Source: Rhodanobacter sp. FDAARGOS 1247
Lineage (GTDB): Bacteria; Pseudomonadota; Gammaproteobacteria; Xanthomonadales; Rhodanobacteraceae
Direction: 5' to 3'
NCBI RefSeq assembly: GCF_016889805.1
Contig: NZ_CP069535.1
Location: 3,348,001-3,412,000, forward strand
DNA: 64,000 nucleotides
The position numbers and the translations under genes are program-made. Positions within the stretch are counted from its first letter, which is position 1. The number at the start of each line of letters is the position of its first letter. The notes below the pieces were generated by a model. The model was not told the DNA's origin, ran no database searches, and was given only the letters and a program-made list of their open reading frames with translations. Below are positions 2,946-55,196 of this stretch, piece by piece.

Positions 2946-4385
2946 TCAGGTCGCGGCCAGGCTCACGCTGAAACGGGCACCGCCGAACTCCGGCGAACGA
3001 TCGACCACCAGCTCGCCCTGATAGGCATGGATGATGTCCTGCACGATCGACAGGCCGATGCCGTGGCCCTGCACCCGTTCGTCGCCACGCACGCCACGCT
3101 GCAGCACTTTCTCGATGTTGTCCGCGGCGATGCCGGGGCCGTCGTCTTCCACGCTGAGCAGCAGGCCCGAGCGCTGCCGTCCCGCCTCGTGGCGCATCCT
3201 GACCACCAGCAACACGCGATGGCCGGCCCACTTGAACGCGTTCTCGAGCAGGTTGCCCATCAGCTCCAGCAGGTCACCCTGCTCGCCGTAGAACACCGCA
3301 CCGTCCTCGATGTCGAATTCGCACAGGACATTCTTGGCCGCGTAGACCTTCTCCAGGCCTTGCACCAGATCCTCGGCGTGGCCGGCGATCGGCACCGCGC
3401 TGGCGAAGGTCTGCCGGCCGGAGGTGGCCGCGCGCGACAGCTGGTAGGCGACCAGCTCGTTCATCCGCCGCACCTGGTCGAGCACGCTGTTGCGCCGTGC
3501 CGCGTCGTCCTCGCCGTTGGCCGATTCCAGTTGTGAGCGGATCACCGCCAGCGGCGTCTTCAGGCTGTGCGCCAGGTCGGCCAGGGTGTGCCGGTAGCGC
3601 GTGCGCTGCTCGCGCTCGTTGGTGATGAACGCGTTGATGCGCTCGGTCAGGCCGGTCAGCTCCAGCGGGTACTGGCTGTCCAGCTGCTCGCTGTCGCCGC
3701 GCTCGACCCGGCTCATGTCGCTGGCCACCTTGCGCAATGGGGTGAGGCTCCAGCGCAGCAGCAACAGCTGCAGCACGATCAGCATCACACCCAGGATCGA
3801 CAGCCAGATCACCAGGGTGTGGCGGAACACCGCGTTCTCGCCCTCCAGCTGGTCTTCGGTCTGGGCCACCATCACGGTGAGCCGCACGGATTTCTTGTCC
3901 AGCGTGTCGAACGCCACGCCGTAGCTGTAGTAGTACAACCGCCCCATGCGCGTATCGATCGGACCGACGAACACGCTCTGGCCCGGCTCCAGCGGCTTCA
4001 GGAAGGTGAAGTCGCGGCCGATCGCCGAGGAGGACTCCCAGTGGTAGCCGTTGTCGCCCAGGGCCACCGCATACAGGCCCGAGCCCGGACGCGAGAAATT
4101 CGGGTTCGGCGCGGTTTCCGGCTCCAGCAGCTTGCCGTACCGGTTGACGTCGGTACTGGTGATGTAGGCAATCGCGAAATTCTCGAGCCGATCCTGCAGG
4201 CCGCGCAGCGCGCGCGCCTTGGTGGTCTGGGTCAGGGTCAGCCCGACCAGGCCGAGGAAGCCGGCCAGCACGAAACTGGTGGCGATCGCCGCACGCGCTG
4301 CCAGGGACAGCGGACCGTGCGACGACCCACGCTCATTCGTCGTCGCCGTCGGTGCGCGGGATGGCAAAGCGGTATCCGCGTCCAC
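2946..4385 (-). CDS. phoQ: PhoQ-type sensor histidine kinase
   Basis: Membrane sensor kinase partner of the response regulator just upstream. Order: transmembrane helix at about 32-52, periplasmic sensor region 53-188, second helix about 189-210, HAMP-like linker, dimerisation/phosphoacceptor helix with LADLAHSLKTPLAVI (His273), ATPase domain with GNLLENAFKWA and DGPGI. The H-box sequence is the PhoQ type. The start is uncertain: the first ATG (4385) overlaps phoP by 53 nt, no GTG lies in frame nearer the stop, and a TTG at 4367 is an alternative. Translational coupling to phoP is likely. The ligand (Mg2+, cationic peptides or acid in other bacteria) cannot be read from sequence. Confidence 0.88.
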   Translation of the reverse strand: MDADTALPSRAPTATTNERGSSHGPLSLAARAAIATSFVLAGFLGLVGLTLTQTTKARALRGLQDRLENFAIAYITSTDVNRYGKLLEPETAPNPNFSRPGSGLYAVALGDNGYHWESSSAIGRDFTFLKPLEPGQSVFVGPIDTRMGRLYYYSYGVAFDTLDKKSVRLTVMVAQTEDQLEGENAVFRHTLVIWLSILGVMLIVLQLLLLRWSLTPLRKVASDMSRVERGDSEQLDSQYPLELTGLTERINAFITNEREQRTRYRHTLADLAHSLKTPLAVIRSQLESANGEDDAARRNSVLDQVRRMNELVAYQLSRAATSGRQTFASAVPIAGHAEDLVQGLEKVYAAKNVLCEFDIEDGAVFYGEQGDLLELMGNLLENAFKWAGHRVLLVVRMRHEAGRQRSGLLLSVEDDGPGIAADNIEKVLQRGVRGDERVQGHGIGLSIVQDIIHAYQGELVVDRSPEFGGARFSVSLAAT

Positions 4386-5025
4386 GTACCGTCTCGATGG
4401 GTTTGAGGGTGCCTTCCGGATCGAGCTTGCGCCGCAACCGGCCGATGAACACTTCGAGCACGTTGGAATCGCGGTCGAAATCCTGCTGGTAGATGTGCTC
4501 GGTGAGGTCGGCCTTGGAGACCAGCTCGCCCGCGTGCAGCATCAGGTATTCCAGCACCTTGTATTCGTAGCTGGTGAGATCGACCAGCTTGCCTTCCACC
4601 GTCACCGTCTGCGCGGTGGTGTCCAGCTTGATCATGCCGCAGGCCAGGATCGGCTTGGACCAGCCGCTGGCACGGCGCACCAGAGCGTTGATGCGCGCCA
4701 GCAGCTCCTCGACGTGGAACGGCTTGACCAGGTAATCGTCGGCGCCGTACTTGAGCCCCTCGACCTTGTCCTGCCAGCTGCCGCGCGCAGTCAGGATCAG
4801 GATCGGATAACGCTGGCCGTGTTCGCGCAACGCCTTGACCAGTTCCATGCCGGACATCTTGGGCAGGCCCAGGTCGATGATCGCCAGGTCGAACGGCACT
4901 TCGCGGCCGAGGTAGATGCCCTCTTCGCCATCCTGCGCCGCATCGACGGCGAACCCGTCCCGTTTCAGGCGTGCCGCCAGCGTCTCGCGCAACGGCGCCT
5001 CGTCCTCTACCAACAGGATGCGCAT
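4333..5025 (-). CDS. phoP: PhoP-type OmpR-family response regulator
   Basis: 230 residues. Receiver domain 1-120 has the acidic pocket Glu7/Asp8, phospho-acceptor Asp51 (IIDLGLP) and Lys101 in VKPFH. The RGSWQDKVEGLKYGADDY segment is diagnostic of the PhoP branch. A winged-helix DNA-binding domain follows (130-225, ending ETVRGRGYRFAI). The ATG lies one base after the stop of the PepSY gene, whose last codons carry the AAGGAG ribosome-binding site, so translation is coupled. It forms an operon PepSY-phoP-phoQ. Confidence 0.93.
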   Translation of the reverse strand: MRILLVEDEAPLRETLAARLKRDGFAVDAAQDGEEGIYLGREVPFDLAIIDLGLPKMSGMELVKALREHGQRYPILILTARGSWQDKVEGLKYGADDYLVKPFHVEELLARINALVRRASGWSKPILACGMIKLDTTAQTVTVEGKLVDLTSYEYKVLEYLMLHAGELVSKADLTEHIYQQDFDRDSNVLEVFIGRLRRKLDPEGTLKPIETVRGRGYRFAIPRTDGDDE

Positions 5026-5026
5026 A

Positions 5027-5344
5027 TCAGCGTTTCTCCTTGCGACCCGCATTCTTGGCGGGCGGATTCTTGATTGACTGGGCCGATGGGGGATTCTTGC
5101 CCGATTCGGACGAGACCACCACCACCTTGACGTGTCCCTGCGGCGTGAGCACCTTGATCCGGTACTCCTGCCGACGCCCGACCCCGCGCTGCTCGGCCGA
5201 CAGGATCTTGCCACCCGTATCCTGTTGCACCTTGACCACCGCCTGATCCAGCGTCACCGCCGCCGACTGGGCCGCGGCCACACCGGCCGCACCCACGCAC
5301 AGCGATATCAGCAGAGCGGTGATGAAGTTTTTGTGCCCCGTCAT
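5027..5344 (-). CDS. Secreted PepSY-domain protein heading the phoPQ operon
   Basis: 105 residues with signal peptide MTGHKNFITALLISLCVGAAGVAAAQ, then a single PepSY-like domain (VTLDQAVVKVQQDTGGKILSAEQ followed by EYRIKVLTPQGHVKVVVV), then a Lys/Asn/Pro-rich basic tail. PepSY domains are thought to inhibit peptidases or modulate sensors in the periplasm. Being first in an operon with phoP and phoQ suggests it modulates the PhoQ sensor or is expressed as part of an envelope-stress feedback; this is inference. Its stop and the phoP start are 1 nt apart. Confidence 0.82.
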   Translation of the reverse strand: MTGHKNFITALLISLCVGAAGVAAAQSAAVTLDQAVVKVQQDTGGKILSAEQRGVGRRQEYRIKVLTPQGHVKVVVVSSESGKNPPSAQSIKNPPAKNAGRKEKR

Positions 5345-5426: not shown

Positions 5427-6407
5427 TCACGCCGCCGCACACGGCAGCGCAGCCCGCTCCAGCAGTTCCCAGCCCGCGCCGGGCAGGTGGGCGCCTTCGC
5501 TGATCGTGCGGCGGAACGCGCGGGCGCCCGGTTCGCCCTGGTACAGGCCGAGCAGGTGCCGGCTGATGTGCTTCAACGCGGTACCCCGGGCCAGCTCGGC
5601 CTCGACGTAGGGACGCAGGTGCTCCAGCACGCTCTCGCGGCTGGGCAGCGGTTCGCCATGCAGCTCGTGCTCGATCTGCGCCAGCAGGTAGGGATCGTGG
5701 TAGGCGGCCCGACCCAGCATCACCCCGTCCAGCTGCGCCAGGTGTCCGCGCACCTGCGCCACGCTGGTGATGCCGCCGTTGATCACCACCACCAGCTGGG
5801 GGAACTCGCGCTTGAGCCGGTACACCCGCTCGTAGTCCAGCGGCGGTACCTCGCGGTTTTCCTTCGGCGACAGGCCTTTCAGCCAGGCCTTGCGCGCATG
5901 CACCACCAGCACCTCGACACCGGCGCCCAGCATCTGTTCGGTAAAGTGCTGCAGGCCGGCGTAGTCGTCCTGGTCGTCCACCCCGATGCGGCACTTCACC
6001 GTGACCGGAATGCCGACCGCATCGCGCATCGCCCTGACGCAATCGGCGACCAGCGCCGGCTCGTACATCAGGCAGGCGCCGAAGCGGCCGGACTGCACCC
6101 GGTCCGACGGGCAGCCGACGTTGAGGTTGATCTCGTCATAACCCGCCTCGGCGCCGAAGCGGGCGGCCTGCGCCAGCTCCAGCGGATCGCTGCCACCCAG
6201 CTGCAGGGCCACCGGGTGCTCCTGCTGGCTGTGCTCCAGCAGGCGCAACTGGCGGCCACGGACCAGCGCCGCGCTGGTCACCATTTCGGTATACAGCCGC
6301 GAACGCGGCGACAGCAGCCGGTGGAAATAGCGGCAGTGCCGATCGGTCCAGTCCATCATCGGCGCCACGCTGAGGCGCCATGGCAGGGCAAAAGCAGGGT
6401 CATTCAT
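5427..6407 (-). CDS. dusA: tRNA-dihydrouridine synthase A
   Basis: FMN-dependent NADPH oxidoreductase that reduces U20/U20a in tRNA D-loops. The 326-residue TIM barrel starts LSVAPMMDWTDRHCRYFHRLL (DusA subgroup), has the catalytic Cys99 in NVGCPSDRV, and VKCRIGVD plus NGGI and GRAAYHDPY phosphate-binding segments. I start at MNDPAFALPW; the upstream in-frame extension is not family-like. It follows the 82-aa gene by 63 nt on the same strand, but as a housekeeping gene it probably has its own promoter. Confidence 0.94.
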   Translation of the reverse strand: MNDPAFALPWRLSVAPMMDWTDRHCRYFHRLLSPRSRLYTEMVTSAALVRGRQLRLLEHSQQEHPVALQLGGSDPLELAQAARFGAEAGYDEINLNVGCPSDRVQSGRFGACLMYEPALVADCVRAMRDAVGIPVTVKCRIGVDDQDDYAGLQHFTEQMLGAGVEVLVVHARKAWLKGLSPKENREVPPLDYERVYRLKREFPQLVVVINGGITSVAQVRGHLAQLDGVMLGRAAYHDPYLLAQIEHELHGEPLPSRESVLEHLRPYVEAELARGTALKHISRHLLGLYQGEPGARAFRRTISEGAHLPGAGWELLERAALPCAAA

Positions 6408-6470
6408 GCGCCTAGTGTACGTGCTGGCGACGGCCAGCCCGGCGCGCCGCGGCACATCGCCGGCCTGGCG

Positions 6471-6719
6471 TCAGCGCGGGGGCGAAGTGCCGGCGCGTCG
6501 TTCCAGGCCGTACAGCGCCTCGCCGTCAGGCAACGGATCGCGGCGCAGCAGTCCCGCGCTCACCAGCTCATCGAGCACCTGCTCGATGCGCCGGCGGCCG
6601 GTCTCCAGCCGTTGCCGCGGCAGCCACCAGCTGACAATGCCGCACAAGGTATCCGCCGCCTGCGGGTGTGAACGCAGGTAGGCGAGTACCTCGCGCCTCA
6701 CCTCGGCATCGTCCTGCAT
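6471..6719 (-). CDS. Small winged-helix-like protein, last gene of the calpain locus
   Basis: 82 residues. The C-terminal half (RRRIEQVLDELVSAGLLRRDPLPDGEALYGLER) has the recognition helix-wing pattern of a winged-helix domain, but no family is recognised. The ATG is only 6 nt beyond the stop of the calpain-like peptidase gene, so it is almost certainly cotranscribed with it. It might be a small regulator or an adaptor that binds a partner protein; the sequence does not decide. No cysteine pair or transmembrane segment is present. Confidence 0.62.
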   Translation of the reverse strand: MQDDAEVRREVLAYLRSHPQAADTLCGIVSWWLPRQRLETGRRRIEQVLDELVSAGLLRRDPLPDGEALYGLERRAGTSPPR

Positions 6720-6725
6720 GGCCGT

Positions 6726-8180
6726 TCAATGTGCCGTGCCAAAACCGGCGAAGTATTTCTTGAACGCCCCGATCTCCATCGCGAACACGCCGTCGTTGTC
6801 CTTCAGCGTGATCGGTCGCCACCAGCTCACGTCGTACATGGAAATCGTGGCGTCCAGCACGCTGCTGGTCGCCTCGGTGCTGCCCCAGGGATTGCGCAGC
6901 ACGATCCAGCGCCGGCAGTCGCGATAGGCCCAGCCCAGCACCGTGTAGCAGTGCGAGCCGACGATGTGCGCGCTGGAATAATCCACGTGGTCGGGCGCGG
7001 CATCGCCGGTCGAGTAGGTCCATGCCGTCATCGGATTGAAGGTGCGGTACGACAGGCAGTTGGAGCGCAGCAGATGCCACAGGTCGTCGGCACTGCGGCT
7101 GGCCGTATCGTAGTAGTGGCGCGCGCCGCCATTGAGCTGGGCAGTGGCCCACACGCAGTCGCCCCAGGCTGTCTGCGTGATGTCGGGCATGTCGCTGGAG
7201 GTCCCCGTCTTCAGCTTGGCGTAGGCCTTCTCGTAGACGGCCGGCCATGACTCGCCCGCTTCCCTGGAGCGGCAGTAGATCGGGTAGCCGGACGCGGTCA
7301 GCGGCACCGCCTCGGTGACCTCGATCGACTTGTCCAGCGCACCGCCCGAGTCGGGCTTGCAGAAGTTGATCTGGTCATTGAACTGGGTCTGGCTGGTTCC
7401 GGTTGCCCGGGTCAGGTGCGCAATCCGGAACGGCGTTGCCCAGGCGATCGCCGAGAGCGCCGCGATGTAATAGCAGTTGGCCACGGCGCCCTGGACGGGG
7501 TCGAAGAACTCGGCGGTCTCGTGGAAGAACTCGCCCGAGGTGGCCCAATGTGCACCCGGTGGCGTCCAGCCCTGGATCGCGTTGAGCACGATCTTCGGAT
7601 CGAAGGTGATCGAACGGACGATGTCCGCCGACAGGGAGCGACCCAACACCAGCGCGCGCACGGCCGGTGGCAGGCTCAGCGAAACGCGCAGGCGCGAATA
7701 GCGTGACAGGTCGCCGCACAGGATCGGCCAGTTGAGGATGGACTTGAGCTCGGGCACCCGCGCCATCTCGGCCAGCGTCGTGTACCGGTCGAGGCTGGCC
7801 AGCCCGCCCGCCTCGGCGTCGTTGCCGTCTCGGGGCAGCTGCACATCCAGCAGCGGTGAGCGCTCGCGCACCAGGTTGAGCTGCTTGTCCAGGGCCAGGC
7901 CCACGTAGAGCGGACCGCCGTACTTGGGATCGAACAGCTCCTCGTACGGCGTGGCCAGCACCTGCTCCAGCACGCTGGCGGGGTCGGGTATGGCATTCCA
8001 TGGAATCGGCTGGCCGGAAACCAGGTCGGCCAGCGCATACGGATTGATCACCGCGCAGTTCTGGCCCTGCGCTCCCGTCGACGCGGTTGCCCGTGATGCG
8101 ACGTCTTTCGCGGCCGACGGTTTCGGCGCCGACGATTTCGGGCTCGATGTTTTCGCTGTGGAAGTTCTCGACGTGGCCAT
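6726..8180 (-). CDS. Calpain-type (C2 family) cysteine peptidase
   Basis: 484 residues. The papain-fold core has the calpain triad in the right order: Cys236 in PVQGAVANCYYIAAL (oxyanion Gln230), His410 in GSHCYTVLG, Asn430 in IVLRNPWGS. The segment SWPAVYEKAYAKL (311-323) is the calpain protease-core signature helix. No C2 or Ca2+-binding EF-hand domain is seen. A Ser/Ala/Lys-rich tail (1-40) and about 180 residues of unassigned sequence precede the core. There is no signal peptide, so it is probably cytosolic unless exported by a dedicated route. A GGAGAGGG ribosome-binding site precedes the ATG. Third gene of a sigma-54-type operon. Substrate unknown. Confidence 0.82.
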   Translation of the reverse strand: MATSRTSTAKTSSPKSSAPKPSAAKDVASRATASTGAQGQNCAVINPYALADLVSGQPIPWNAIPDPASVLEQVLATPYEELFDPKYGGPLYVGLALDKQLNLVRERSPLLDVQLPRDGNDAEAGGLASLDRYTTLAEMARVPELKSILNWPILCGDLSRYSRLRVSLSLPPAVRALVLGRSLSADIVRSITFDPKIVLNAIQGWTPPGAHWATSGEFFHETAEFFDPVQGAVANCYYIAALSAIAWATPFRIAHLTRATGTSQTQFNDQINFCKPDSGGALDKSIEVTEAVPLTASGYPIYCRSREAGESWPAVYEKAYAKLKTGTSSDMPDITQTAWGDCVWATAQLNGGARHYYDTASRSADDLWHLLRSNCLSYRTFNPMTAWTYSTGDAAPDHVDYSSAHIVGSHCYTVLGWAYRDCRRWIVLRNPWGSTEATSSVLDATISMYDVSWWRPITLKDNDGVFAMEIGAFKKYFAGFGTAH

Positions 8181-8275: not shown

Positions 8276-10465
8276 TTACGGGTGCACGACGCCACGCTCG
8301 GCGAGCGCAAAGGCGATCAGTCGGCTGTCGTCGATACCCAGGCGCTGGTAGCCGTCGGTGGCCTTGCCATAGACCCGCAGCGATCCGGCAAAGGCCGCAT
8401 TGACGCAACTGCCGACCAGGCTCGTGGGCGTGAAGTCCCGCTGGTAGTAGCCGGCCACCTTCACGTAGGGCGCGGAGACCGTCGCCGCGCTGGATGCCGC
8501 CACCTCGACGTATGGCGCCAGCGTGGAGGCCTCCGGCAGCACGTGCGATCCACGCGTGACGTCGAAGTCGAACACCGCATGCTGGTTGGGATGCGCCGCG
8601 AGATAGCGCAGGCGCACCAGGTCACCGGGGTGATAGCGCAGGAAGCCGCAGTCGTCGCTGGCCGACACGCCGCCGATACTCGGCTGCGGCAGATCCGCCT
8701 GCACCCGGTTGTTGTCCACATGCACGCGCATGACATAGGCGCCTCCGGCTTCCTCGGCGGCCGTGGACAGGCGGGTCGTGGTGCCGTCGGCATTGCGCGC
8801 CAGGAAGCGGAAGCTGCCCGCGCCCGGCATCACCTGATGGCCGGCGGGATCGAACACCTCGATCTTCACTTCGAAGACACCGGCATCGTCGGTGAGGTTG
8901 TCCGGGGACAGCGGCGGCGCGGCCAGCATCGTGTTCCAGCCCGCCCCCACCTCGCCCAGGTTGCCCTGGGTCCATTCGCGCACCAGCACGGTGGCCGGAT
9001 CGGTGCCGCGCGCCGGCGGCGTCTGCGGCTTGAACTCGAACAGGCCGCTGTGACTGCCCACCGTCACCGGACCGACGGGATAGCTTTCGTAGGTCGGCAG
9101 CCGGTCCGAATATTCCATCCGGTAGCCGCGCGCCAGCGGTGCGCTGATCGGCGTCCAGCTCGGGTCGTCCGCACCGGTATTGGGCGAGGCACCGAGGTGC
9201 CGCCACGAATAGCGGTAGTACCTGATCCCGCTGGACGGAATGAAGTACGAGTCGTCGTGGATGAAGTTCAGCGTGCCGCCGAACGGAGCGTTGTAGAGCC
9301 AGCCCAGCGAGGTCCCGGTCTGGTAGTCGAGCATGCCGTCGGGCCGCACCCATCCGGCCGGCGCCGCCGGCGCGCCGGGCGGAATGCCCCAGATCGGCGC
9401 GTTGGCGATCGCGTACGGCAGCATGAACAGGGTGACCCCGGGCGGAACGTCGTACGGCGGTTCCTCGCAGGCCACGGCGCCCGGCAGGTTGATCACGACT
9501 TCCGAGCCGCAGGGATAATTCCAGTGCGTGCCGCAACCGATCGAGGGGCGGTACACCGTGGTCCAGACACCGCCCTGGAACTGCTCGACCCAGAAGTACA
9601 GGTCCGGCTGGTCGGCGCAGTCGTGGAAAATCAGCGCCGCAAAGCGCCCGTCGCTGTCGGCATCGATCGTGGTCAGCGCATCGACCCGGAAGTAGCCCCA
9701 CAGATAGGTGAGATCGCACAGGTGGATGGCGATGATGCTGGCCAGCCCGAGCAGCTGACTACGGGCCTGCCCGGCCGACTGTGCTGTGGTCAGCGCCGCC
9801 GCGTGCAGGGCCAGGGTCTCCGCGCCGGTCGAAGCCGGCGCCTGCGGCAGCGGCGATTGCGCGGCGGCGGGCCGTGCGGCACTGCGCGTCATGATCGGCC
9901 CGGCCAGCGGACCGGGATCGGGGATCGGCGGAAACGGCAGCGGCCGCAACTGCAGCTTGTGCAGCAGGTCGTCGCGCAGGCGCAGGATGTCCAGGTCGGG
10001 CAGCTTCTCGATCACCAGCCGGATGCGATCGACCTCGCAGACATGCACGCGGGCATGACAGACCGGCAATTCCCTGGCGCTGCCATCGGGGAGGTTGAAG
10101 CGCTTGACCAGCCGGCCCCGCACGTAGCACAGGCACCAGTGCGGAAAGACGTAGGTCGGCAGCTTCAGCTGCAGCACCGGCTTGTCCAGCAGCAGGCGGG
10201 TGGATTTTGCGTAACCGCCCATCCGCTTCAGGGCCGCCGCGGTCGGTAGCGGCTGGCCTTTCTCCGTGGGTGGACCGAGGATCAGCTCGACCATCTGGCC
10301 GTCCATTTCGGCGGGCACCTCGATCACGGCAGCGCCGTCCTTCAACGGCGCCTGACCCAGCGCGGCTCCCTGGCGATTGAAGGCATAGGCCTGCAGTGCC
10401 GGCACTTCGCCCTGGTCGCTGAATTCGACCTTGATCTGCAGGCGGGCGGACTTTTCGGATTTCAT
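8276..10465 (-). CDS. Large protein of unknown function in the calpain locus
   Basis: 729 residues, not recognised. Residues 1-130 look all-beta (LQIKVEFSDQGEVPALQAYAF and similar), perhaps a carboxypeptidase-regulatory-like sandwich. Around 230-310 there is a motif-rich stretch (DADSDGRFAALIF, then QPDLYFWVEQF and CGTHWNYPCGSEV) resembling transthyretin-like beta folds, with several paired Cys. The C-terminal 350 residues are also beta-rich with many aromatics. No signal peptide. The start at 10465 is chosen for its AGGAG site; the open frame continues upstream without family support. It lies between the 444-aa gene and the peptidase gene. Confidence 0.6.
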   Translation of the reverse strand: MKSEKSARLQIKVEFSDQGEVPALQAYAFNRQGAALGQAPLKDGAAVIEVPAEMDGQMVELILGPPTEKGQPLPTAAALKRMGGYAKSTRLLLDKPVLQLKLPTYVFPHWCLCYVRGRLVKRFNLPDGSARELPVCHARVHVCEVDRIRLVIEKLPDLDILRLRDDLLHKLQLRPLPFPPIPDPGPLAGPIMTRSAARPAAAQSPLPQAPASTGAETLALHAAALTTAQSAGQARSQLLGLASIIAIHLCDLTYLWGYFRVDALTTIDADSDGRFAALIFHDCADQPDLYFWVEQFQGGVWTTVYRPSIGCGTHWNYPCGSEVVINLPGAVACEEPPYDVPPGVTLFMLPYAIANAPIWGIPPGAPAAPAGWVRPDGMLDYQTGTSLGWLYNAPFGGTLNFIHDDSYFIPSSGIRYYRYSWRHLGASPNTGADDPSWTPISAPLARGYRMEYSDRLPTYESYPVGPVTVGSHSGLFEFKPQTPPARGTDPATVLVREWTQGNLGEVGAGWNTMLAAPPLSPDNLTDDAGVFEVKIEVFDPAGHQVMPGAGSFRFLARNADGTTTRLSTAAEEAGGAYVMRVHVDNNRVQADLPQPSIGGVSASDDCGFLRYHPGDLVRLRYLAAHPNQHAVFDFDVTRGSHVLPEASTLAPYVEVAASSAATVSAPYVKVAGYYQRDFTPTSLVGSCVNAAFAGSLRVYGKATDGYQRLGIDDSRLIAFALAERGVVHP

Positions 10466-12062: not shown

Positions 12063-12078
12063 CGCAACGAACATGCCA
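12063..12078 (-). promoter_or_regulatory. Sigma-54 (RpoN) promoter, -24/-12 elements
   Basis: Read on the minus strand the site is TGGCATGTTCGTTGCG, against the consensus TGGCACG-N4-TTGCW. The invariant GG-N10-GC spacing is exact, with one mismatch in the -24 box and one at the last position of the -12 box. It lies about 85 bp upstream of the 444-aa gene start and directly downstream of a gene for a sigma-54 activator, which makes chance unlikely. Confidence 0.8.
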
Positions 12079-12137: not shown

Positions 12138-12224
12138 CCGGGTCAGGACAAACCCGTTTCGACAACGCACCCGGGGAAAACTTGACCCGGGCAGGAACGC
12201 GACGGAGCGCGCCATGCGCGCCGC

Positions 12225-13226
<1,002 letters not shown>

Positions 13227-14106: not shown

Positions 14107-14345
14107 CTTCTCCCTCCCCTTCGTTCGCCTGTGGCCGAATGCCGCATGATGCCGCAGATCGCGGCGCGGGTCTGCGACAGGCGGGCGGCGGATCGCGTAT
14201 CCTTGGCAGCTACGTCGCCGCGCTCATTCCGGCGCTCGCAAGGCACCGTGGCCACACTGCCGCCCTCCCCGCGAGTCCCCACTCCGCCCCGCCGGAGGAC
14301 CCGGCGCGCGGCTCCCCGAACCAGCGACAACGCGAGACAACCGAC

Positions 14346-15122
14346 ATGGTGGCAATGGCAACCGAGCACGTGATCGACGTGCAGCACTGGAACGACAGCC
14401 TGTTCTCGTTCCGCACCACGCGCGATCCCGGCTTCCGCTTCGACAGCGGCCAGTTCGTGATGATCGGCCTGGAAACGGACGGGCGTCCGCTGATGCGCGC
14501 GTACTCGATCGCCAGCGCCAGCTGGGAGGAACACCTGGAGTTCTTCTCGATCAAGGTCGCCGACGGCCCGCTCACCTCGCGCCTGCAGCACCTGAAGCCC
14601 GGCGATCCGCTGATCGTCACGCGCAAGCCCACCGGCACCCTGGTGCTGACCGACCTCAAGCCCGGGAAGAACCTGTACCTGCTCGGCACCGGCACCGGGC
14701 TGGCCCCGTTCATGAGCATCATCCGCGATCCGGACACCTACGAGCGCTTCGACCGGATCGTGCTGGCCCACGGCGTGCGCCGGATCGAGGACCTTGCCTA
14801 CGCGCACTATCTCGAACACGAGCTGCCACAGCACGAATACCTGGGCGAGCTGGTGCGCGAGAAGCTGATCTACTACCCCACCGTGACCCGCGAGCCGTTC
14901 CGTCACCGCGGCCGCATCACCGACGCGGTCGTCGACGGCGTGATGAGCGCGGCGGTCGGCCTGCCGCCACTGAACCCGGCCACCGACCGCGTGATGCTGT
15001 GCGGCAGTCCGGCGATGCTGGACGACCTGTGCGCCCTGCTCGACGGCCGCGGCTTCCAGGCCTCGCCACGCACCCGCGCGCCGGGCGACTACGTGATCGA
15101 GCGGGCCTTCGTGGAGAAGTAG
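14346..15122 (+). CDS. fpr: Ferredoxin/flavodoxin-NADP+ reductase
   Basis: 258-residue FAD enzyme that passes electrons between NADPH and ferredoxin or flavodoxin. FAD-binding RAYSIAS at 51-57, NADP-binding GTGTGLAPF at 114-122, and the bacterial class I C-terminus YVIERAFVEK with a penultimate-region aromatic. Two in-frame ATGs (14346 and 14355) are possible; I use the first. Followed by a hairpin repeat and then a DUF456 gene on the same strand. Confidence 0.92.
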   Translation: MVAMATEHVIDVQHWNDSLFSFRTTRDPGFRFDSGQFVMIGLETDGRPLMRAYSIASASWEEHLEFFSIKVADGPLTSRLQHLKPGDPLIVTRKPTGTLVLTDLKPGKNLYLLGTGTGLAPFMSIIRDPDTYERFDRIVLAHGVRRIEDLAYAHYLEHELPQHEYLGELVREKLIYYPTVTREPFRHRGRITDAVVDGVMSAAVGLPPLNPATDRVMLCGSPAMLDDLCALLDGRGFQASPRTRAPGDYVIERAFVEK

Positions 15123-54609: not shown

Positions 54610-54751
54610 GGATGGTGTCCCGTTGATGGTGGACACCCGATCCTAATCGAAGGCCGCTGCCATCACCCATGACTAAAGTTATGGACACGGAGCAAGCCGC
54701 GTGCCGGCAGCAGCGTGGACCCTGATGGAAGCAGCCACCAGGCCATTCGCC

Positions 54752-54946: not shown

Positions 54947-55196
54947 GGGATGGCTCCGATCATCAGGCGAAAGTGCCTTGTGATGTATCCAGAGCAATCG
55001 CCGTGCCAACCCGAAAATTTCTCGCAAGTCGTTGTTTTCATGTAGTCATCCGGGATCGGTCGCCGATCAGCGGAGTTGTCCGCGGACATCGTCCACCCGA
55101 TTCCGGACAGCCACGCCTCGCGAAATGACTGGCCCATCGCAGATCGCCCGCAGGCGCCACGCTATCCTGCCGCCAGACTTGGCACCGGGAGTCGGC

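Follow-up and report, generated by a model that had tools for sequence, protein, structure and literature searches.

The site at 12063..12078 of the window (by which we mean the whole 64 kb stretch of Rhodanobacter chromosome analysed here, positions 3348001-3412000) is, to judge by its conservation, a genuine sigma-54 promoter. In the overall reading, which we regard as distinctly probable, it is the promoter of an extracellular contractile injection system (eCIS): the product of the adjacent activator gene would act on it from an upstream palindrome, the machine proper would have been deleted, and a calpain-type protease encoded in the operon behind the promoter would be a presumed cargo. 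An earlier note on this DNA had proposed an RpoN-controlled calpain operon and, beyond that, a free-standing inducible proteolytic or stress system. The first part holds as far as the sigma-54 promoter, the activator, the calpain gene and an RpoN encoded in the window's genome are concerned. The second is not supported: activator, promoter and gene D are parts of an eCIS locus in relatives, placed in the closer ones between the genes fpr and dus (Table 1).

Table 1. Features of the locus, in window coordinates.
Feature	Position	Strand	Basis or remark
Dihydrouridine synthase gene (dus)	5427..6455 (probable ATG 6407)	-	Pfam Dus; right-hand locus boundary in closer relatives
D-dus joint, 63 bp	6408..6470		In 8 mapped relatives this interval contains the eCIS structural genes
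Gene D, 82 aa, winged-helix-like by eye	6471..6719	-	Homologue precedes the sheath gene in eCIS-bearing relatives
Gene C, calpain-type cysteine protease, 484 aa	6726..8180	-	Pfam Peptidase_C2, residues 205-478, 73 bits
Gene B, 729 aa, beta-rich multidomain protein	8276..10465	-	Directly downstream of A
Gene A, 444 aa	10644..11978	-	No known domain
Predicted sigma-54 promoter, -24/-12 elements, TGGCATG-TTCG-TTGCG	12063..12078	-	Consensus match and conservation
Palindrome copy 1, 2 mismatches	12140..12155		61 bp upstream of the sigma-54 site (conserved distance); putative UAS
Palindrome copy 2, 2 mismatches	12173..12188		94 bp upstream of the sigma-54 site; may be a further activator site
Sigma-54 activator gene, 333 aa	12225..13226	-	Pfam Sigma54_activat 207 bits, AAA_lid_14, HTH_8
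Ferredoxin-NADP-reductase-like gene (fpr)	14139..15122	+	Pfam FAD_binding_6/NAD_binding_1; left-hand locus boundary

The sigma-54 site and its conservation

Sigma-54 promoters follow the consensus TGGCACG-N4-TTGCW. From 12078 to 12063 the minus strand reads TGGCATGTTCGTTGCG, a GG-N10-GC arrangement with two mismatches to that consensus; the earlier note had letters, strand, spacing and position right, and its placing of the site between a sigma-54 activator gene and a four-gene set with a calpain-like peptidase is confirmed. The stop codon of the activator gene (13226..12225) flanks the site on one side and the minus-strand gene set on the other, with 84 bp between the site and the first ATG of the set (11978). 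In isolation the site stands out only moderately. Shuffling the 300 bp downstream of the activator produced an equally good match 27 times in 1000; the two strands of the 64 kb window hold 14 sigma-54 matches with at most two mismatches, and the looser pattern, with up to three, gives 284 matches where 312 are expected. Elsewhere in the window a perfect match (54993-55008, minus strand) and a one-mismatch match (54691-54706, minus strand) stand upstream of two short minus-strand ORFs, the first of which begins like a small membrane protein. The shuffles would favour a chance match, with transcription starting from a sigma-70 promoter; we hold this to be highly improbable in view of the conservation of the site, of the palindrome and of their spacing.

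The order-wide sample consisted of 59 loci with an activator homologue (the window excluded), 40 of them classed as eCIS-bearing. A site with at most two mismatches lies within 900 bp of the activator gene in 39 of these 40, the sole exception being L129, where 60 shuffles per locus lead one to expect 3.97. With at most one mismatch the count is 28 of 40 against 0.28. Among the 19 loci without eCIS, 11 have a site of the first kind and four of the second; some such sites are to be expected for activators that have other targets. The contrast between the two classes for the two-mismatch site (Fisher p 2.5e-4) must be read as one between loci that share ancestry: since the loci are related, such counts are not independent events.

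Within Rhodanobacter, a site of the form TGGCAYK-N4-TTGC is found 123-255 bp past the activator stop in all 18 loci where the activator is accompanied by gene D (activator-D loci). When 40 sites were aligned, the best match being chosen at each locus, GG and TTGC were retained in every one; this set takes in the window, L004 and L056, leaves out L129, L140 and L141, and so is not the same as the 40 eCIS-bearing loci. The GG-N10-GC pair is thus conserved, in its TGGCAC/TTGC context, across orthologous loci. The earlier note had asked beforehand whether it would be conserved in relatives that carry the operon, and it is: the site is retained in L004, the only other genome with the full A-B-C-D set, and in all four relatives with the calpain alone. 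The window site is one of the weaker copies, with two mismatches in the site and two in the palindrome. What makes it convincing as a sigma-54 promoter is its conservation across loci together with a palindrome at a near-fixed distance, and we infer from these sequence features that RpoN and the adjacent activator would use it.

The activator and its putative binding site

The activator has the features of a bacterial enhancer-binding protein: an AAA+ domain, a Walker A motif (found by script at residue 37), a GAFTGA-type loop that reads GAFTDA (residue 84) and a DNA-binding domain. It resembles proteins of the PspF/NorR type in its AAA+ domain with this loop, in its HTH_8 domain and in the position of its gene, directly upstream of the presumed sigma-54 promoter. 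It differs from them in its length of 333 residues, in that Pfam calls no receiver or sensor domain, in that its matches to the NorR and PspF equivalog models fall far below both cut-offs, and in a palindrome that is seen only with its close relatives. The activator is present in 19 of 45 Rhodanobacter genomes (E <= 1e-90), and that of the window is nested in a supported clade of 16 rows, 13 of them eCIS-linked, the others being L056, L004 and the window itself. L060, where the activator is 53% identical, has neither D nor eCIS. A decayed copy of the locus was seen in G458 (L061, 9126-10018), where pieces of the activator and of A stand next to fpr.

Where the activator is close (at least 59% identical), 26 of 33 loci (window and L004 included) have the palindrome, GGGTCA-N4-TGACCC, with at most two mismatches 58-64 bp upstream of the site; where the activator is remoter, none of 18 does. 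Omitted from this count were nine of the 60 loci, as their best sigma-54 site has more than two mismatches. At control offsets a match of this quality was met in 8 of 165 bins, mostly in the 90-96 bp bin, where the second copy of the window sits. Seven close-activator loci have no such match at 58-64 bp, among them L004, whose palindrome has three mismatches; in four of the seven a palindrome is found at 39, 40, 51 or 153 bp. The whole 64 kb window contains three matches with at most two mismatches. Two are the copies of Table 1. The third, also with two mismatches, lies at 6397-6412 in the D-dus joint, over the probable start codon of dus, and is either chance or a remnant. The palindrome is probably the binding site of the activator, and the second copy may be a further one; as far as sequence can tell, the promoter is accompanied by an activator gene and, on its upstream side, by a conserved candidate binding site.

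The mechanism that we propose is the following. The adjacent activator would bind the palindrome, which precedes the -24 element by about 62 bp, and open RpoN polymerase at the 12063..12078 site. In relatives this switch would turn on the eCIS operon, which begins with gene D, and would also drive whichever genes stand in the slot, that is, the interval between activator and D: the calpain alone, B alone, A alone, or A-B-calpain. The switch itself comes in copies: the five eCIS loci whose only slot gene is the calpain or B all have a second site in front of D, 75-84 bp before the D match, with a palindrome of its own 62 bp further upstream. No second promoter before D was found in the window, L004 or L016.

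A probable eCIS locus without its machine

In relatives the gene order is activator, slot, D, sheath, tube, Pvc16 and AAA. At least two of four tested eCIS genes (sheath, tube, Pvc16, AAA) lie downstream in 15 of the 18 Rhodanobacter activator-D loci, L058 and L059 being counted by their sheath and tube matches only. The three without that set are the window, L004 and L056, of which 7 kb were fetched. In L056 (G460) a gene of Hsp70 type, recognised by eye, follows activator and D in place of the sheath gene (3392-5086). In other genera, L112 (G726) and L116 (G751) have activator, sigma-54 site and D, with no tested eCIS gene in 14 kb each. The machine is present elsewhere: the relatives G035 and G022 have sheath, tube, baseplate, AAA ATPase and DUF4157, the Pfam matches of G035 comprising sheath, gp19 tube, Pvc16_N, eCIS_core (DUF4157), Phage_base_V, gp25 and Baseplate_J, with CIS_tube just below cut-off, and the ATPase of G022 having a called WHD domain. 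Gene D, which precedes all this, has no match in NCBIfam or PADLOC, and its homologue at L046:2788-3033 is without a Pfam match.

Measured by sheath, tube, baseplate and AAA ATPase, the window locus falls short of an eCIS. Its genome, which is 99.99% complete, was searched for the sheath (PF04984), Pvc16_N and the eCIS ATPase; neither of the first two was found, nor an orthologue of the third, the AAA matches reaching only 27-30%. The locus is best seen as a derivative of an eCIS and not as a member of the family.

Its chromosomal place points the same way. Of the 17 Rhodanobacter activator-D loci fetched, 14 have fpr next to the activator; in L079-L081 fpr adjoins dus. In eight of the nine eCIS genomes that have activator and dus on one contig, dus follows in the same orientation some 27-39 kb downstream; the ninth, G027, has it about 1.5 Mb from the activator, so that the fpr-dus place is not universal for the locus. 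Among seven genomes without the activator, fpr directly adjoins dus in three (G003, G007, G018), with no eCIS match between them, and was not seen in the 12-13 kb fetched from the other four (G025, G014, G001, G016). The window and G033 have only activator-A-B-C-D between fpr and dus. L004 is R. spathiphylli B39, a strain near that of the window, which we take to be G033, and it shares the D-dus joint with the window.

The best reading is that the window holds the 5' part of an eCIS locus without the machine, with regulator, promoter and presumed cargo retained. In an ancestor of the window strain and R. spathiphylli, a deletion with one end point at the end of D and the other shortly ahead of dus would have removed the machine and left activator, promoter and A-B-calpain-D in place. 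Between the window and L004, dN/dS is 0.07 for the activator, 0.11 for A, 0.13 for B and 0.10 for the calpain, all clearly under constraint, and 0.35 for D, which with only 82 codons is not clearly so. One might imagine instead that there never was a full eCIS here, activator, D and A-B-C having been assembled at the fpr-dus site; the clean D-dus joint would suit such a history, as would a genome devoid of sheath, Pvc16 and close AAA match. We find it improbable, considering that the chromosomal place is the same, that the activator is nested, that among the 16 other Rhodanobacter activator-D loci 15 have eCIS genes after D, and that the fragments in G458 show decay at this very place. We infer that the machine-less state arose by deletion.

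The calpain and the slot behind the promoter

Gene C encodes a predicted protease of the calpain (C2) type, as the earlier note had recognised: besides its Peptidase_C2 domain it has the triad Cys236-His410-Asn430, aligned to calpain-8, and the catalytic residues are retained in all six slot copies. Its likeness to calpains lies in this catalytic core. It differs from them in that its N-terminal 200 residues, rich in Ser, Ala and Lys by eye at the N-terminus, contain no called domain, and no other calpain domains are called. The family has 683 matches, and gene C is matched by none of the PADLOC defence models.

Ten of the 18 Rhodanobacter loci (window and L004 included) have nothing in the slot, the distance from activator stop to D match being then 219-338 bp. 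The slot holds the calpain alone in four (L045, L052, L054, L055), B alone in L047, A alone in L016, and A-B-calpain in two, the window and L004. The calpain is thus one of several alternative occupants of the slot behind the eCIS promoter, and it is accessory: many slots are empty, and in the eCIS loci that carry the calpain it occupies the 5' end, after a switch copy of its own.

Its place in the slot and the switch that it shares lead us to prefer eCIS cargo as the role of the calpain: together perhaps with B, it would most likely be loaded into the particle or co-released with it, and would cut proteins of the target cell. Counterpoints are that some members of the calpain family come from distant taxa and that A is found with peptidases where no eCIS genes are nearby. 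Also, known eCIS toxins tend towards the 3' end of the operon, according to part of the text of PMC8213781, whereas the calpain is at the 5' end. The regulation could be as proposed and the calpain act within the producer, in maturation of particle proteins, in lysis for release or as a suicide protease. We think this doubtful. Its accessory nature and its 5' position behind a switch copy of its own in the calpain-bearing eCIS loci fit such a use; on the other side, no inhibitor gene was recognised (looking without a model search), and the gene is constrained even with the machine gone, so particle maturation cannot be its sole job.

Genes A and B

Gene A has no match in Pfam, NCBIfam or PADLOC and a best PDB sequence match at E 0.39. 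It has at least 2227 homologues at E<=0.001, and ten of its cysteines are invariant in a 17-row alignment. Gene B is without a match in Pfam (searched with a longer ORF in the same frame), NCBIfam, PADLOC and PDB sequences. A is followed by B in the window, in L004 and in three Thiomonas loci; B was not found in the eight others (L008-L015) of the 11 non-Rhodanobacter A loci, the choice of genes for this search having been made by a rough script rather than by gene calling.

L007, from Thiomonas, has an S8 peptidase (subtilase) with A-B, and L013 a C1 (papain-family) peptidase beside A. L012 has beside A a NAL1_N-type protein (28.6 bits, cut-off 27), which we take to be trypsin-like; upstream of A in this Verrucomicrobia bin there is also a neprosin-like protein, recognised by eye (6228-7190, with an N stretch at its start). 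In the three Thiomonas loci (L005, L006, L007) a large ATPase regulator precedes A-B, its C-terminus SARP/BTAD-like by eye; its domain matches are NPHP3_N above cut-off and NACHT/AAA below it in L007, and AAA_22 below cut-off in L005. No eCIS genes were found beside A in L005-L015.

Such observations feed another explanation, in which A-B-calpain is an independent, horizontally moving module that works without a machine, the eCIS promoter being its landing place and the link with eCIS incidental. We lean against it while giving it appreciable weight. A is rare in the genus (four of 45 Rhodanobacter genomes, one of the four copies a fragment) and, in a 398-genome sample of the phylum, occurs in the window's own genome only; at the same time it is 59-66% identical in bins of Nitrospira, Chloroflexi and Verrucomicrobia and 38-39% identical in Prolixibacteraceae bins and one Burkholderiales bin, binning errors being possible. 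The Thiomonas loci with A then B, and the peptidases of L007 and L013, argue for it too. Of the 11 genomes from which the non-Rhodanobacter A loci come, three have Pvc16_N, one of them barely (28.5 against 27 bits); several of the 11 are incomplete bins. Against it, the calpain alone, B alone and A alone also fill the eCIS slot behind an eCIS-type promoter, and the trio as such is not general, because B was missing from so many of the A loci outside Rhodanobacter.

A bolder version is unlikely in our opinion. In it, gene A would combine with a second large protein, B or a different one, and with an exchangeable peptidase of the calpain, subtilase or papain family into an undescribed module found across phyla, with its own mode of delivery or of action on membranes, which could be plugged in behind an eCIS regulator and outlive the machine. 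We rate it lower because B accompanies A in only three of the 11 non-Rhodanobacter loci. If it were true, the sigma-54 switch of a dead nanomachine would drive a protease weapon that needs no machine.

Relation to known systems and significance

The locus of the relatives agrees with eCIS of the Afp/PVC type (Geller et al., 2021, PMC8213781), as far as that survey was covered, in its sheath, tube, Pvc16_N, DUF4157 and baseplate genes and its WHD/AAA ATPase. The window departs from this type in that its genome has no orthologue of sheath, Pvc16 or ATPase. Control differs as well: it would be by a sigma-54 activator here, whereas the candidate regulators named in the covered part of PMC8213781 are LuxR-type (GerE), BTAD and RfaH. 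The words sigma and calpain are absent from the text of that survey. In the portions covered of the open-access literature, including PMC8213781, PMC11297309, PMC10598620, PMC12961389 and PMC10599522, we saw no link of sigma-54 or calpain to eCIS, and the terms 'extracellular contractile injection' and 'rpoN' were not found together in open-access literature. There, contractile injection systems and calpain are mentioned together in a review of toxins as tools. Some papers name both sigma-54 and contractile injection; in the one of them that was covered, eCIS appears only within the title of a reference. The regulation and elicitors of many eCIS clusters are still unclear, according to the part of a review that bears on them.

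Our reading offers, for one bacterial order, a testable eCIS switch made of one activator, one 16-bp palindrome and one sigma-54 promoter, copied ahead of accessory genes. The pair formed by palindrome and promoter would serve to trace co-regulated genes that lie apart from the machine, and strains that have lost the machine and kept the slot genes would give a way to ask whether the presumed cargo works alone.
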